DNA of 52,463 nucleotides from Anaeromyxobacter terrae (GTDB taxonomy: Bacteria > Myxococcota > Myxococcia > Myxococcales > Anaeromyxobacteraceae), in NCBI RefSeq assembly GCF_022690685.1, contig NZ_JALCYY010000040.1, positions 1 through 52,463 of the forward strand, read 5' to 3'. Below, in pieces: positions 3,546 to 8,797 of the stretch. The position numbers were made by a program, and so were the translations under genes. The notes under the pieces are model-generated. The model was given only the letters and a program-made list of their open reading frames with translations, was not told the origin of the DNA and made no database searches. Within the stretch, counting starts at the first letter, position 1. Each line of letters opens with the position of its first letter.

Positions 3546-3851
3546 ATGCTCAAGCTCCTCGCGATCCTGCGCTCGATCTTCCTCGTCTTCATCGTCGGGT
3601 ACACGGTCCGTGCGACACCTTTCATCGGGGAGGTGTCGCGCACCTTCGACGAGCAGTACGCCCGCTGCGCCACGGGGCTGGGCCTCCTCCTGCGGGCGGC
3701 CTGGATCGCCATCGCCTGGATCGCCTTCGAGACGGCGATCGGCTGGTGGCTCGCGACGCGCGCCGCCCGCGCCTCGCGCGCCGCGAAGCTCGGCGTGGAC
3801 GTGCCGAAGGGCGGCGGCGAGCCGCCGTTCGCGCCGCCGGGCCACCGGTAG
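3546..3851 (+). CDS. small membrane protein, unknown function
   Basis: 101 residues. Two hydrophobic segments are visible: about residues 4-22 (LLAILRSIFLVFIVGYTV) and about 44-70 (GLGLLLRAAWIAIAWIAFETAIGWWLA). The tail is basic and then Pro/Gly-rich. No SD is seen. Instead a -10-like TACACT (3533-3538) lies 7 bases before the ATG, as expected for a leaderless mRNA. The deacetylase-like gene starts 4 bases after the stop, so the two are probably coupled. No family recognised; it is more probably a real gene than chance because of its codon composition and membrane topology. Confidence 0.6.
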   Translation: MLKLLAILRSIFLVFIVGYTVRATPFIGEVSRTFDEQYARCATGLGLLLRAAWIAIAWIAFETAIGWWLATRAARASRAAKLGVDVPKGGGEPPFAPPGHR

Positions 3852-3854
3852 CCC

Positions 3855-5633
3855 TTGCTGCGCGCCCGCACCCTCCTCTACCGGCTCCGCTCCTGGCTGC
3901 ACCGCCGGGACGTGAGCGTCTGGTACGACCCGCGCTACCGGCTGCCGCTGTCCGGGCTCGAGGTCGGCGCGGGGATGGAGCCGCGCCGCGCCGACTTCGT
4001 GATGTGGTGGCTGCGCGAGTGCGGCGCGGTGCCGGCGAGCGCGGTGCACGTGCCCCGGCGTATCGCCTACGACGACCTCGCGCGCGTCCACACGCCCGAG
4101 CTGCTCGAGTCGCTCGGGCGGCCCGCGACGATGGCGCACATCTTCGCGGTGGACCCGTCCGACGTGCCGGTGGACGAGGTCATGACCACCATCCGGCTCG
4201 CCTGCGGCGCCACCCTCGCCGCGGCGCGCGACACGCTCCGGACGAAGCACCCCGCGCTGAACCTGCTCGGCGGGTTCCATCACGCGGCGCCCGGAGCGGC
4301 CGGCGGCTTCTGCCCCGTCAACGACGTCGCGGTCGCGGTGGCGGCGCTGCGGAGCGAGGGCTTCTCGGGCCGGGTCGCGGTGCTCGACCTCGACGCCCAC
4401 CCGCCCGACGGCATCGCCGCCTGCCTGGCCGGAGACAGGAAGCGCTGGATCGGCTCGATCTCCGGGTCCGACTGGGGCCCGCTCGAGGAGGTGGACGAGA
4501 CGGTGCTGCCGGAGGGGACCGGCGACGCGGGGTACCTCGAGGCGCTCACCGGGCTGCTCGACCGGATGCCGCGCCCGCAGCTCGCCTTCGTCCTCGCCGG
4601 CGGCGACGTGCTCGAGGGCGATCGCTTCGGGAAGCTCGGGCTCACCCTCGAGGGCGTCCGGGAGCGCGATCTCCTCGTCGCGACCGAGCTCGACGGCGTC
4701 CCGACGGTGTGGCTGCCTGCCGGCGGATACTCCACTCGCGCGTGGCGCGTGCTCGCCGGCACCGGGATGGCCCTCGCGGCGGGCTCCTCGGAGCCCATCC
4801 CGGCCGACTACGACCCCCTCGGCGCGCGCTTCACCTTCCTGTCGCGCGAGATGTCACCGGGCGAGCTCACCGACGCGGGCGAGCTCACGGCCGACGACCT
4901 CGAGGAGGCGCTCGGGATCCGCCCGCAGCGGCAGCGCCTCCTGCTCGGCTTCTACACCGCCTCGGGGATGGAGCACGCCCTCTTCCGCTACGGGATCTTC
5001 GCGCAGCTCGAGCGCCTCGGGTACCGCCAGTTCCACGTCACGTTCGACTCGACCGGCCTCGGGGAGCGCGTCCGGGTGTACGGCGAGTCGGAGGCCCAGG
5101 AGCACCTGCTCGTGGAGATCGTCCTCGAGCGGAGGCGCGTCCTCGGCGTGGAGGTCCTGTACGTCCACTGGCTCTCGCTGCGGAACCCGCGCGCGCAGTT
5201 CAGCGAGCGGCGGCCGCGCCTCCCCGGACAGGACGTGCCGGGCCTGGGGCTCGCGCGCGAGGCGGGCACGATGCTCGCGCGCATGGCGGTCCGGCTCGGG
5301 CTCGGCGGGGTCGTGTTCCGGCCGGCCCACTTCCACACGGCCTACGCCGCCCGCTACGCGTTCGCCTTCATCGACCCCGAGCGGCAGGGCCGCTTCGACG
5401 CGCTCATCCGCGACCTCGCCCACGTGCCGCTCCTGGAGGCGACGATCGCGGTCGCCGAGGGGCGCGTGCTCATGGACGGGGAGCCGTACACGTGGGAGGC
5501 GGACGAGATGGCCTACTGGCTCCGCGAGTCGCCCGCCGACGCGGGCGAGGTGGAGCGCGAGCGGGAGCGGGTGCGGTTCTCGCTCGTCCCGCGCCCCGCG
5601 CCGGCGGGCTCGCCGGCGCCGCCCGGCCCCTGA
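3855..5633 (+). CDS. histone deacetylase-fold protein with C-terminal extension
   Basis: 592 residues from a TTG start 4 bases after the upstream gene. Residues about 20-320 match the histone deacetylase/acetylpolyamine amidohydrolase fold. His-His pair: GGFHHA (H142, H143). Zinc ligands: D178 and H182 in DLDAHPPDG, and D251 in GGDVLEGD. Transition-state Tyr: Y292 in PAGGYS. All catalytic positions appear kept, although the usual HHGDG is HPPDG. The remaining 270 residues form an extra region rich in aromatic and charged residues (RQRLLLGFYTASGMEHALF) that I do not recognise. The family removes acetyl groups from lysines or polyamines in the cytoplasm; the substrate here is unknown. It converges on the TlpA-like gene with 10 bases between. 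Confidence 0.75.
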   Translation: MLRARTLLYRLRSWLHRRDVSVWYDPRYRLPLSGLEVGAGMEPRRADFVMWWLRECGAVPASAVHVPRRIAYDDLARVHTPELLESLGRPATMAHIFAVDPSDVPVDEVMTTIRLACGATLAAARDTLRTKHPALNLLGGFHHAAPGAAGGFCPVNDVAVAVAALRSEGFSGRVAVLDLDAHPPDGIAACLAGDRKRWIGSISGSDWGPLEEVDETVLPEGTGDAGYLEALTGLLDRMPRPQLAFVLAGGDVLEGDRFGKLGLTLEGVRERDLLVATELDGVPTVWLPAGGYSTRAWRVLAGTGMALAAGSSEPIPADYDPLGARFTFLSREMSPGELTDAGELTADDLEEALGIRPQRQRLLLGFYTASGMEHALFRYGIFAQLERLGYRQFHVTFDSTGLGERVRVYGESEAQEHLLVEIVLERRRVLGVEVLYVHWLSLRNPRAQFSERRPRLPGQDVPGLGLAREAGTMLARMAVRLGLGGVVFRPAHFHTAYAARYAFAFIDPERQGRFDALIRDLAHVPLLEATIAVAEGRVLMDGEPYTWEADEMAYWLRESPADAGEVERERERVRFSLVPRPAPAGSPAPPGP

Positions 5634-5643
5634 AGCCCCCTGG

Positions 5644-6156
5644 TCACTCCGCGAGCAGCTTGCGGACCTCGCCCTCGAGCTTGCGCCCCTCCGCCACGTC
5701 GTACCCCAGGTGGACGGAGCGGACGACCCCGGCGCGGTCCACGAGGAGGGTCGTGGGCAGCCGGCTGATCGAGAACGGCGCCGACAGCCGCCCACCCCCG
5801 CGGTCCCACAGGACGGGGAACGACACCGGGGTCCCGGAGAGGAACGCCTCCACCATGGCGCGGTCCTCGTCGAACGCCACGCCGTAGACTGCGAGCCCCT
5901 GCGCGCCGTAGTCGCGGGCGAGCCGGTCGAGGAGGGGGAGCTGCTCGCGGCACGGCTCGCACCAGCTCGCCCAGAAGTCGATGACCCGCACCTTCCCGCC
6001 GGAGGCGTCCTCGACCCGCACCTCCCGCCCCGCGAGGTCCTCCGCGGTGAGATCCGCGCGCTGGCCGATCAGGGGGGAGCGCGAGGGCGCGGGGCGCCCC
6101 CCGGCGCAGGCGGTGGCGAGGAGGCCGAGGAGAAGGAGAGCGCGGCGCATCGTCAC
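5644..6156 (-). CDS. TlpA-like thioredoxin-fold lipoprotein
   Basis: 170 residues from GTG at 6156; an ATG two codons in (6150) is an alternative start. The N-terminus is a lipoprotein signal with lipobox ATAC (Cys17). A thioredoxin-fold domain follows, with the redox motif WCEPC (Cys66, Cys69) after FWAS, and the cis-Pro in the segment SRLPTTLLVD. TlpA/ResA-type proteins reduce periplasmic disulfides, for example in apocytochrome c before heme attachment. The divergent neighbour is a barrel plus 12-heme cytochrome operon, so a role in maturing that cytochrome is a reasonable inference, though general thiol-disulfide work is equally possible. Confidence 0.85.
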   Translation of the reverse strand: MTMRRALLLLGLLATACAGGRPAPSRSPLIGQRADLTAEDLAGREVRVEDASGGKVRVIDFWASWCEPCREQLPLLDRLARDYGAQGLAVYGVAFDEDRAMVEAFLSGTPVSFPVLWDRGGGRLSAPFSISRLPTTLLVDRAGVVRSVHLGYDVAEGRKLEGEVRKLLAE

Positions 6157-6419
6157 ATCATAATCGGGGCCGGTCGTTACTTCCGGACGCGTGTCGAACC
6201 GTCCGCCGAGGCGCCGATTTCACCCTGCGTCGGTCTTCGCGCGCCGCCCGAGCGCGATGCCGTAAATCCCGCACCATGACGGAGGTTTCCGGGGTGTAAA
6301 TGATCTTCGACAAGATTGGCCGGCGTGGCCTGTGGCATCGTCCGCGGAACTCCGCGGCCGGTGGCCGGCGCATCCGCCGAGCCTTGCCGCGACGCACCCA
6401 CGCTCGAGGTGAGCTCCTG

Positions 6420-7751
6420 ATGCGCAACATCACACCAGTCATCGCCCTCGGGCTGGCGCTCTTCGCCGGTCCGACGGTGCGGGCGGACACGGTCGACGTG
6501 ACCTCGACCACCCTCCTCACCGTGGGTGAGCAGACGCGCGGCGGCGTGCCGGGCGAGAAGCCCGAGCTCGTCACCGTCGCCCCCGCGTACGAGATCCTCA
6601 ACATCGCGGCGCGGGGCGTGACGAACCCGATCGCGAAGGACCTGCAGCTCGTGGTCTCGACGTGGGGCTCGTACGAGCTCGCCGATCGGCGCTGGGACAA
6701 CGGGACGGGCTCGGACCTGACCGGCGACGTCATGACGGGCTACCTCTCGGGCCGCCTGCTCGGCGACGCGCTGACGCTCCGGCTCGGCCGCGCGCACGTC
6801 ATGACCGGCGTCGCGCGGATGATCCAGCTCGACGGCGGCGAGGCGATCGTGACCCTGCCGTTCGGCGTTCGCCTCTCCGGCTACGCCGGCGCGCCCGTGT
6901 CGCAGCGGTTCGGCACGCGCAGCGGCGTCCGGAGCTGGAACCCGGTCGCGGGCGATCTCGCCTACGGCGGGCGCGCGGCCGTCTTCGTTCCCATCTCGGG
7001 TTACGCGGGACGCGGCCTCGACGTCGGCGCCTCTGCGAACTTCGTCGAGGACGGCGGCGACCCCGTCCGGCAGGAGGTCGGCGCGGACTTCCGCCTCCAG
7101 CCGCTCGCGAAGAACCTCACCCTCTCCGGCTTCGGCTCCTACAGCCTCTACGACGAGCGGTTCTCGGAGGGGAACGCCGCGGTGAGCTGGACGGTGCAGC
7201 CGCGGCTGCACCTCACCGCCGACTGGCGCTTCACCGCGCCCGACCTCTTCCTCGCGCGGAACTCCATCCTCTCCGTCTTCTCCACCGAGCGCCGCAACGA
7301 CATCGGCGGCGGCGTCCGGTACGAGCTGCAGCACGGCCTCGAGGTCGGCGCGGACTACCACCTCGCCATCGAGCCGGGGGAGGACGGCGACTTCTACGGA
7401 CACATCGTGGAGGCGAGCCTCGACTGGGAGCGCGGCCACACCTCTGCGGGCGGCGAGGTCTTCTACCGGGACCAGCTCGAGAACGGCTACGTCGGCGGCC
7501 GCCTCTTCGGGCGCCAGGACCTCGGCAAGCTCTTCGCCGCCGCGGACGTGCTTGGGTACTTCTTCCGCGAGCAGGTGAACGGCGAGGACTACTCGATCTC
7601 CGGCACCCTCACGGCGGGCGTCGAGCTCGCCAAGGGCTTCAGCGCCGTCATCGCGGGGCGCGCCGGGATGACCCCCTTCCTGGAGCAGACGTACGACGTC
7701 ATGGCGAAGCTCGTTTACAACCAGACCTACCGCATCCGGGAGGTGCGCTAA
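6420..7751 (+). CDS. outer-membrane porin-like barrel paired with multiheme cytochrome
   Basis: 443 residues from ATG 6420, chosen because it begins a clean Sec signal peptide (ITPVIALGLALFAGPTVRA) after a GAGGTGAG ribosome site. An upstream in-frame ATG at 6300 would add 40 basic residues with no signal character. The mature part is long alternating beta-strand sequence with many Tyr/Arg/Gly and ends YNQTYRIREVR. No CxxCH or CxxC motif is seen. The stop overlaps the start of the dodecaheme lipoprotein (TAATG), so the two are translationally coupled. This matches the logic of porin-cytochrome conduits that carry electrons across the outer membrane in metal-respiring bacteria. Similarity to MtrB or the Geobacter Omb proteins cannot be judged by eye. 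Confidence 0.7.
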   Translation: MRNITPVIALGLALFAGPTVRADTVDVTSTTLLTVGEQTRGGVPGEKPELVTVAPAYEILNIAARGVTNPIAKDLQLVVSTWGSYELADRRWDNGTGSDLTGDVMTGYLSGRLLGDALTLRLGRAHVMTGVARMIQLDGGEAIVTLPFGVRLSGYAGAPVSQRFGTRSGVRSWNPVAGDLAYGGRAAVFVPISGYAGRGLDVGASANFVEDGGDPVRQEVGADFRLQPLAKNLTLSGFGSYSLYDERFSEGNAAVSWTVQPRLHLTADWRFTAPDLFLARNSILSVFSTERRNDIGGGVRYELQHGLEVGADYHLAIEPGEDGDFYGHIVEASLDWERGHTSAGGEVFYRDQLENGYVGGRLFGRQDLGKLFAAADVLGYFFREQVNGEDYSISGTLTAGVELAKGFSAVIAGRAGMTPFLEQTYDVMAKLVYNQTYRIREVR

Positions 7752-8797
7752 TGAACCGCACGCTCCCCGTCGTCCTCGCCGCCGCGCTCGCCCTGGCGGG
7801 CTGCAGCGCGAAGGCGAAGAAGGTCGAGAAGGAAGAGAAGGCGCAGCGGCCCGAGACGGAGTTCGTTCACTCGATCCACGTCGACCAGGGCATCGAGTGC
7901 AAGGACTGCCACGCCGGGATCGACAAGGCGACCTCGCTCGCCGAGCGGCACCTGCCCGCCACCGACAAGTGCAAGGAGTGTCACGACGACAAGACCGCGC
8001 CGAAGCCCGCCGCGATCGAGCCGCGCGTCCACTTCTCGCACGCGAAGCACCTCGGCCAGGCCGCGGTGAAGGGCAAGTGCGACACCTGCCACAAGAAGCT
8101 CCCGGAGGCCGGTGAGCCGGCCTGGTCGCCGCCGATGGACATCTGCACCTCGTGTCACAAGCACCAGACCGACTTCAACGAGGGCCGCTGCCGGCCCTGC
8201 CACGTCGACCTGAAGGGCTACTTCCCCGAGCGCGCGTACGCGCACAAGGGCGACTGGCTCCGCCTCCACGGCCCGCTCGCGCGCCCGAGCGCGGAGAGCT
8301 GCGCGCAGTGCCACGACCAGACCTACTGCTCGCAGTGCCACTCGCCGACCACGGCCGCCGCCCGCCCCTCGATCATCTTCCCCGAGGAGGTGAAGCGGGA
8401 CTTCATCCACCGCGGTGACTACGTCTCGCGCCACATGATCGAGGCCGCCCAGGATCCGGCGAGCTGCTCGCGCTGCCACGGCAAGAAGTACTGCGAGTCC
8501 TGCCACGAGCAGCAGAACCTGACGAAGCTCTTCTCCGGCTCGCGGGTCCCCGCGACGCACGAGAAGGCGGGGTGGGTGAACGACCGCGCGAGCGGGAACT
8601 TCCACGGCGACGCCGCCCGGCGCGACGTCTCGAGCTGCGCCGCGTGCCACGATCAGGGCGCCGACTCGGTCTGCGTGCTCTGTCACCAGGTCGGCGGGAG
8701 CGGCGGGAACCCGCACCCGAAGACGTTCCTCCGTAAGCACGACACGGACGACCGCCGGAACAACACGATGTGCGCGGCCTGCCACCACGGCACCTAG
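7751..8797 (+). CDS. dodecaheme c-type cytochrome lipoprotein
   Basis: 348 residues with a lipobox LAGC (Cys18), so it is probably lipid-anchored. Twelve CxxCH heme-attachment sites are visible, with first cysteines at about residues 50, 74, 110, 132, 147, 184, 193, 239, 248, 297, 308 and 341. Many extra His residues (FVHSIH, VHFSHAKH) could serve as distal ligands, as in cytochrome c3/c7-type folds. One heme per 29 residues is very dense. It starts inside the stop of the upstream barrel gene and ends at a canonical terminator, so it is the last gene of a two-gene operon. Likely role: electron transfer through or at the outer membrane with the barrel. Which side of the membrane it faces is not decided by sequence. 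Confidence 0.9.
   Translation: MNRTLPVVLAAALALAGCSAKAKKVEKEEKAQRPETEFVHSIHVDQGIECKDCHAGIDKATSLAERHLPATDKCKECHDDKTAPKPAAIEPRVHFSHAKHLGQAAVKGKCDTCHKKLPEAGEPAWSPPMDICTSCHKHQTDFNEGRCRPCHVDLKGYFPERAYAHKGDWLRLHGPLARPSAESCAQCHDQTYCSQCHSPTTAAARPSIIFPEEVKRDFIHRGDYVSRHMIEAAQDPASCSRCHGKKYCESCHEQQNLTKLFSGSRVPATHEKAGWVNDRASGNFHGDAARRDVSSCAACHDQGADSVCVLCHQVGGSGGNPHPKTFLRKHDTDDRRNNTMCAACHHGT

Follow-up and report, generated by a model that had tools for sequence, protein, structure and literature searches.

A zinc-dependent deacylase domain fused to a predicted GNAT-fold domain in Anaeromyxobacter terrae and other Myxococcota

In the 52,463-nucleotide stretch of Anaeromyxobacter terrae DNA analysed here (the window), an open reading frame at positions 3855–5633 of the forward strand encodes a two-domain protein of 592 amino acids, read from a TTG start, and full-length relatives of it exist. 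Fifty-six of 60 relatives gave a match to this protein, 49 of them through both domains; one match (G059) stopped at residue 404, and the remainder had the deacetylase domain alone or nothing. Because the match spans both domains in 49 of the 60, the reading frame is confirmed as real, and a chance reading frame or a frameshift is ruled out. The possibility, raised in the first-pass annotation, that the C-terminal region might be absent in relatives is likewise false. The nearest named locus is that of Anaeromyxobacter soli, with 95% identity over the C-terminal region.

Immediately upstream on the same strand, with its stop 3 nt ahead of the TTG, a gene at 3546–3851 encodes a 101-residue protein with two hydrophobic stretches (19-residue Kyte-Doolittle peaks of 2.07 at residue 1 and 1.72 at residue 43). 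Downstream, and convergent with the fusion gene, lies a gene for a thioredoxin-like (TlpA-type) protein (5644–6156, reverse strand) whose counterpart at locus L059 matches Redoxin. Beyond it, at 6300–8797, are genes for a 483-residue protein with no Pfam match and for a 348-residue protein (start at 7751) with 12 CxxCH haem motifs; these are possibly, as a guess, a porin-cytochrome pair for extracellular electron transfer.

The sole match in a Pfam scan of the 592-residue protein was PF00850 (Hist_deacetyl) at residues 41–297 (3975–4745, forward strand as for all features of the protein below), with an E-value of 2.9e-34 and a score of 119.2 bits against a curated cut-off of 27.9. The earlier claim of an HDAC-fold enzyme is thereby borne out, and this is the only protein of the window's own genome to match PF00850. 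Its residues were followed in an alignment (A3) of 79 rows, consisting of the window protein and 78 other two-domain proteins; the latter came from a contig scan with a profile of the C-terminal region (A2), which found 122 relatives, of which 80 were retained and 78 gave a long enough two-domain protein. The tandem catalytic histidines H142 and H143 lie in GGFHHA (4269–4286) directly behind F141, the foot-pocket gatekeeper (role from PMC13325672). Two zinc ligands, D180 and H182, lie in DLDAHPPDG (residues 178–186; 4386–4412), the third, D251, in AGGD (4596–4607), and the catalytic Y292 in AGGY (4719–4730). D180, H182, D251 and H142 are invariant in the 79 rows, H143 is kept in 78 and Y292 in 77. 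The zinc and catalytic residues, which seemed to be complete in the first-pass annotation, are thus there in the window protein (H142/H143, D178, D180, H182, D185, D251 and Y292).

The replacement of HHGDG by HPPDG, also remarked on in the first-pass annotation, is a real variant, with P183, P184 and D185 each found in 78 of the 79 rows, which rules out a sequencing slip. As it leaves the metal and catalytic residues in place, the change is unlikely to be an inactivating one. HPPDG is confined to one clade, and because nine more distant fusions (L157–L164 and L173) carry HQGDG, HQGNG, HPGDG or HDGDG in its place, the variant looks to be derived with the metal site retained. The deacylase site is broken in 3 of the 79 fusions: in L129, HH has become HG and HPPDG has become HAPVG, and in L077 and L086 the catalytic Tyr is replaced by Arg.

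By profile, the nearest solved structure was HDAC11 of Leptospira interrogans (E 1.6e-40), followed by the HDAC-domain protein 9rje (4.1e-36) and then by class I enzymes (about 1e-27). Among the structure matches listed, the same L. interrogans enzyme (9gz5; Z 38.0, 2.4 Å, 285 residues aligned) was tied with HdaH of Vibrio cholerae (Z 37.5). With these HDAC11/class IV enzymes the window protein has in common the fold, the zinc and catalytic residues, the gatekeeper Phe in GGxHH, the lack of RPP, and the GGY motif. The gatekeeper stands ahead of HH in 78 of 79 rows, and the window reads LGGFHH, with GGxHH where RPP would be; this, together with the presence of AGGY/GGGY, is the pattern described for long-chain deacylases (PMC11532494, PMC13325672). 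D103 occupies the place of E94 in HDAC11 and D101 in HDAC8 (as Asp, not Glu); this place is acidic in 74 of 79 rows (46 D, 28 E), and Arg occurs in none of the 79 at the place aligned to Ser94 of L. interrogans HDAC11. RPPxHH has been associated with strict deacetylation, and GGxHH in its place with activity on long chains (PMC11532494); replacement of the gatekeeper Phe brought activity down to background, and replacement of E94 mostly lowered it, less so for long chains, although in one enzyme the trend ran the other way (PMC13325672). Given LGGFHH with its gatekeeper, the lack of RPP, and D103 at the E94 place, the deacylase half should work like a long-chain HDAC11-type deacylase. The HPFD motif of HDAC11 loop L1 is absent from the window, which has G40-M41-E42-P43 there, and we therefore liken the protein to HDAC11 in its working with no claim that it belongs to class IV HDAC11 (clade B). 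The window clade differs from HDAC11 also in HPPDG, although the nine more distant fusions all have HxGDG or HxGNG and six of them have LGGGFHH, and in an extra, predicted GNAT-fold domain; the solved chains are 305 and 318 residues long.

The deacylase domain is followed by a helix-bearing linker (residues 311–360; 4785–4934), in which model confidence drops to 64–68 at residues 341–360. Residues 330–592 matched no Pfam or NCBIfam model up to an E-value of 10, and the C-terminal region matched no PDB sequence at E 10. When 77 members of this domain family were scanned with Pfam at E up to 1, none matched a GNAT model; S4 appeared in nine members (best 0.039), DUF4031 in one (0.0045), Tsi3 in two (0.016), and five other weak matches were scattered among them, while an NCBIfam scan of 29 members gave one weak match (0.037). 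Being scattered and weak, these were taken for chance and rejected as the identity of the domain. The earlier statement that the region has no match in the domain libraries was thus correct, and the region is nevertheless conserved.

A full-length AlphaFold2 model was confident (pLDDT 93.4, pTM 0.91), but the structure search with it had only HDAC entries among the matches listed, and because one domain filled the list, the C-terminal half was folded alone. This model (77 sequences; pLDDT 90.7, pTM 0.83) runs through two helices, four strands, a helix, a strand and a helix, which is the order of the GNAT core, and places a predicted GNAT-fold domain at about residues 361–558 (4935–5528). The first nine rows of a Foldseek search were NatD/NAA40 at a probability of 1.00 (E 3.0e-4 to 7.3e-4), and the other matches listed in the top 50 were GNATs, Elp3, p300, ICL2/Rv1916, and 2hv2, whose function is not known. 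The TM-scores were modest (0.25–0.39 by query length, 0.27 for the top match). VIA gave SpNatD at a Z of 9.4 (4.0 Å, 147 residues aligned), a value barely above the level that VIA itself calls common, with five other NatD entries at 8.5–8.8 and toxin GNATs, Elp3, ICL2, Naa enzymes and other GNATs next at 6.9–7.9.

Profile comparisons pointed the same way. In hhalign, the C-terminal profile was compared in three versions with 16 ordinary GNATs encoded in the same genome, at single-comparison E-values of 0.0044, 0.014 and 0.0019; 11 control profiles gave 0.13–0.86. A wider alignment gave 0.0045 and one led by the distant relative L227 gave 2.1e-4, with the same controls at 0.16–0.77. Because the hhalign probabilities were low (3–46%), we count this result as support, not proof. 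L227 itself matched Acetyltransf_7 (PF13508) over the loop stretch at E 0.17, which is below the cut-off. The region covered by the hhalign alignment is PGLGL-helix-strand, equivalent to GNAT motif A, which binds the CoA pyrophosphate (PMC4964394). In the window, the equivalent of this pyrophosphate loop is LPGQDVPGLGL (residues 456–466; 5220–5252), with a helix at 467–480 next to it. H494 (5334–5336), where the helix that replaces GNAT alpha4 begins, is a candidate active-site residue on the basis of its conservation.

Conservation is concentrated here. Q459, P462, G463, G465 and H494 are each present in 79 of 79 A3 rows, and P445, P457, Q459, P462, G463, P490 and A496 (window numbering) are invariant in 29 diverse members. 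A wider set of 42, reaching into other phyla, keeps P457, Q459 and G463 throughout, P462 in 41, H494 in 38 and G465 in 37. The loop and H494 are also unchanged in L129, L077 and L086, whose deacylase sites are broken. The consensus GNAT loop is Q/R-x-x-G-x-G/A, and in many GNATs a Tyr of alpha4 is the general acid. The window has GxG at the aligned place, but Q459 stands four, not three, residues ahead of the first Gly (QxxPGLG), the segment between the strand and the loop is long (strand-to-helix separation of 24 residues), and no conserved counterpart of the Tyr was found in the fusions, 58 of 79 of which have Ala at position 499. Thus, the family has in common with NatD/NAA40 and other GNATs a predicted fold, a strand-loop-helix-strand core and a Gly-x-Gly loop ahead of the helix, and departs from known GNATs in its loop, in a conserved His at the start of the alpha4 equivalent, and in escaping the Pfam GNAT models (0 of 77 members). 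Atypical loops do exist in real GNATs (PMC4964394). Since the fold matches agree with a profile comparison that lands on the GNAT pyrophosphate loop, we take the C-terminal region to be, most likely, a divergent domain of the GNAT fold whose loop is atypical. The region is therefore less foreign than the "unrecognised" of the first-pass annotation, which had also envisaged that it might prove to be a known common domain: the predicted fold is common and its profile support weak but specific, but the family is divergent and has no model of its own.

The gene is present in all 24 genomes of the window's family (window included). Of 147 genomes of the class, 119 have the C-terminal domain and 28 gave no match; for the phylum, the figure is 137 of 195. 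A search of 384 relatives gave 152 matches, with 15 of 189 genomes matching outside the phylum, one of them weakly (G233). Plasmids gave no match at E 1e-3, and none of 47 pattern matches in viral contigs was a relative. A complete HPPDG fusion (L213) occurs in one genome placed outside the phylum (G321), which could be transfer, contamination or taxonomy. A second out-of-phylum locus (L219:1453–3222, reverse strand) encodes a GNAT-like protein with an N-terminal extension of ∼290 residues that has no Pfam match and by eye resembles universal stress protein repeats. Solo GNAT-like proteins of about 300 amino acids exist both inside and outside the phylum, and the domain must thus be able to work without the deacylase. 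A tree of 49 domains grouped every one of its 30 fused rows, together with one solo row (L151), in one supported clade (97/88), which points to a single fusion event. The solo L151 (= L079), in which the deacylase domain has been lost, is sister (97/94) to L153 (= L129), with its broken deacylase site, and the GNAT loop is kept in both. Across 3081 pairs, pairwise identity in one half tracks that in the other (r 0.88), which is no test by itself, the pairs being related.

Of the 24 family genomes, 21 have the 101-residue membrane protein upstream, 19 of them at a gap of −4 to 21 nt and two at 99 and 109 nt; L010 and L012 are without it, and L013 begins at a contig end. At 155 loci, in which many genomes are represented twice and some have little upstream sequence, it was not found outside the family except for one chance-level match (E 8.7). 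The coupling proposed in the first-pass annotation therefore holds within the window's family but at no locus examined of any other, and fused homologues elsewhere have other neighbours. We therefore reject the membrane protein as a general partner, and the suggestion of a membrane-recruited enzyme is weakened. No universal operon partner was found, the neighbours being clade-specific. These genes were called by a simple ORF caller, which missed or misread some, and were identified by Pfam on one representative of each. A hexapeptide-repeat transferase gene follows on the same strand at 17 of 80 loci (Myxococcus/Corallococcus group), within 60 nt in 15 of the 17; among the 80 loci, other groups have PAP2 upstream (13), an SRPBCC protein upstream (10), a divergent DinB-type polymerase (5) or universal stress proteins (2). 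As for the solo genes, in Myxococcaceae they start 0–12 nt past the stop of a GreA/GreB-type gene at 6 of 9 loci as given by the ORF caller (L031–L033, L036, L038 and L039) and are followed by a PhoH-like gene at 9 of 9 (Pfam on L032). In another family, they lie near rplQ, convergently, in three genomes (L204, L205 and L207).

Thus, a zinc deacylase domain whose catalytic residues are intact and a conserved, predicted GNAT-fold domain lie in a single polypeptide. We favor the explanation that it is a bifunctional acyl-group enzyme, consisting of a deacylase and an acyl-CoA-binding, probably acyltransferase, half, to which we assign a probability of about one half on sequence and model evidence. 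In the manner of HDAC11-type enzymes, the N-terminal half would strip peptide or protein amino groups of their medium- or long-chain acyl groups. The C-terminal half would bind acetyl- or acyl-CoA through the LPGQxxPGLGL loop and acylate an amine, which probably belongs to that same substrate or to one linked with it. One protein, its halves presumably held in a fixed mutual arrangement, could in this way swap or balance acylation; in the window lineage, the small membrane protein may tether it. The solo forms and the retention of the loop in fusions with a broken deacylase favor a catalytic, or at least independent, role for the GNAT half over pure regulation or docking, and we count the conservation of the loop into other phyla and the confident whole model in favor of the bifunctional reading. 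Against that reading, we count the atypical loop spacing, the missing Tyr counterpart, the low hhalign probabilities, TM-scores and VIA Z, the lack of HPFD, and the absence of the gene from 28 of 147 genomes of the class. In a more specific and tentative form, which we rather doubt, the protein would be an acyl-exchange enzyme, an HDAC11-type long-chain eraser with a new GNAT writer that adds a different acyl group to the freed amine, fused once and kept across much of Myxococcota.

The same domain could instead be a sensor that binds acyl-CoA and switches the deacylase on or off with no transfer, a possible reading but not a probable one. Its precedent is ICL2 of Mycobacterium tuberculosis, which is likewise a metabolic enzyme followed by a GNAT-like domain described as having no sequence homology to known proteins, and which is activated by binding of acetyl- or propionyl-CoA (PMC6788997). 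ICL2 and Rv1916 are among the fold matches listed, the atypical loop and missing Tyr would suit a non-catalytic site, and a confident two-domain arrangement (pTM 0.91) would suit allostery. However, ICL2 is a different enzyme, and the GNAT-like domain of the window family also stands alone in many genomes and persists where the deacylase is broken (L077, L086 and L129) or lost (L151), neither of which one would expect if its role were purely regulatory. The first-pass annotation had suggested that the C-terminal domain could recognize the deacylase substrate while the 101-residue partner recruits the protein to the membrane. The closeness of that partner (≤21 nt in 19 family genomes) agrees with this, and HDAC enzymes are often targeted by added domains. 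Its absence from every locus of another family, together with the fact that the most conserved stretch is the CoA-loop equivalent, makes this the least probable of the readings, and substrate recognition is, given the predicted GNAT fold, one possible role and not the likeliest. Slightly less improbable, but still unlikely, is that a small molecule (polyamine, amino sugar or lipid head group) is the substrate of the deacylase half and is re-acylated by the GNAT half. HDAC relatives do include hydrolases of polyamines and other small molecules (PMC11532494), PrpH and DmhA are among the structure matches listed, and a hexapeptide-repeat transferase gene closely follows at some loci; but that neighbor is confined to one group, and the position that binds the peptide backbone is acidic in 74 of 79 rows.

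The bifunctional reading has a parallel in Bacillus subtilis, in which AcuC is the eraser partner of AcuA, a GNAT writer thus being paired with an HDAC-fold eraser, although these are separate proteins. AcuA acetylates AcsA (PMC11255334), and AcuC belongs to cluster 2 with class I, whereas the window domain is nearest HDAC11, in cluster 5 (PMC11532494). Among the titles and abstract openings listed, in a search that covered few subscription journals, no paper describes an HDAC-GNAT fusion or such a myxobacterial protein. The Myxococcus GNAT of PMC8556138 is NADP-regulated and is another protein; "fused", "bifunctional" and "deacetylase domain" do not occur in that text.

Both halves are of known folds, as far as sequence and models indicate, and what appears new is the fusion of a deacylase with a GNAT-like family that lacks a model. 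Because it is the sole PF00850 match in its genome and its two domains occur together in 49 of 60 relatives, the fusion protein is likely a main zinc-dependent deacylase of these bacteria. The added domain represents a family without a Pfam or NCBIfam model in the members scanned; it has free-standing members in Myxococcota too, and 15 of 189 genomes of other phyla gave a match to it. The natural solo and deacylase-broken forms are ready controls, and the domain can be made separately. If the acyl-exchange reading were true, the solo GNATs encoded next to greA-type genes would make up a new bacterial acyltransferase class, and if both halves are enzymes, the protein would give a direct handle on the writing and erasing of bacterial protein acylation.
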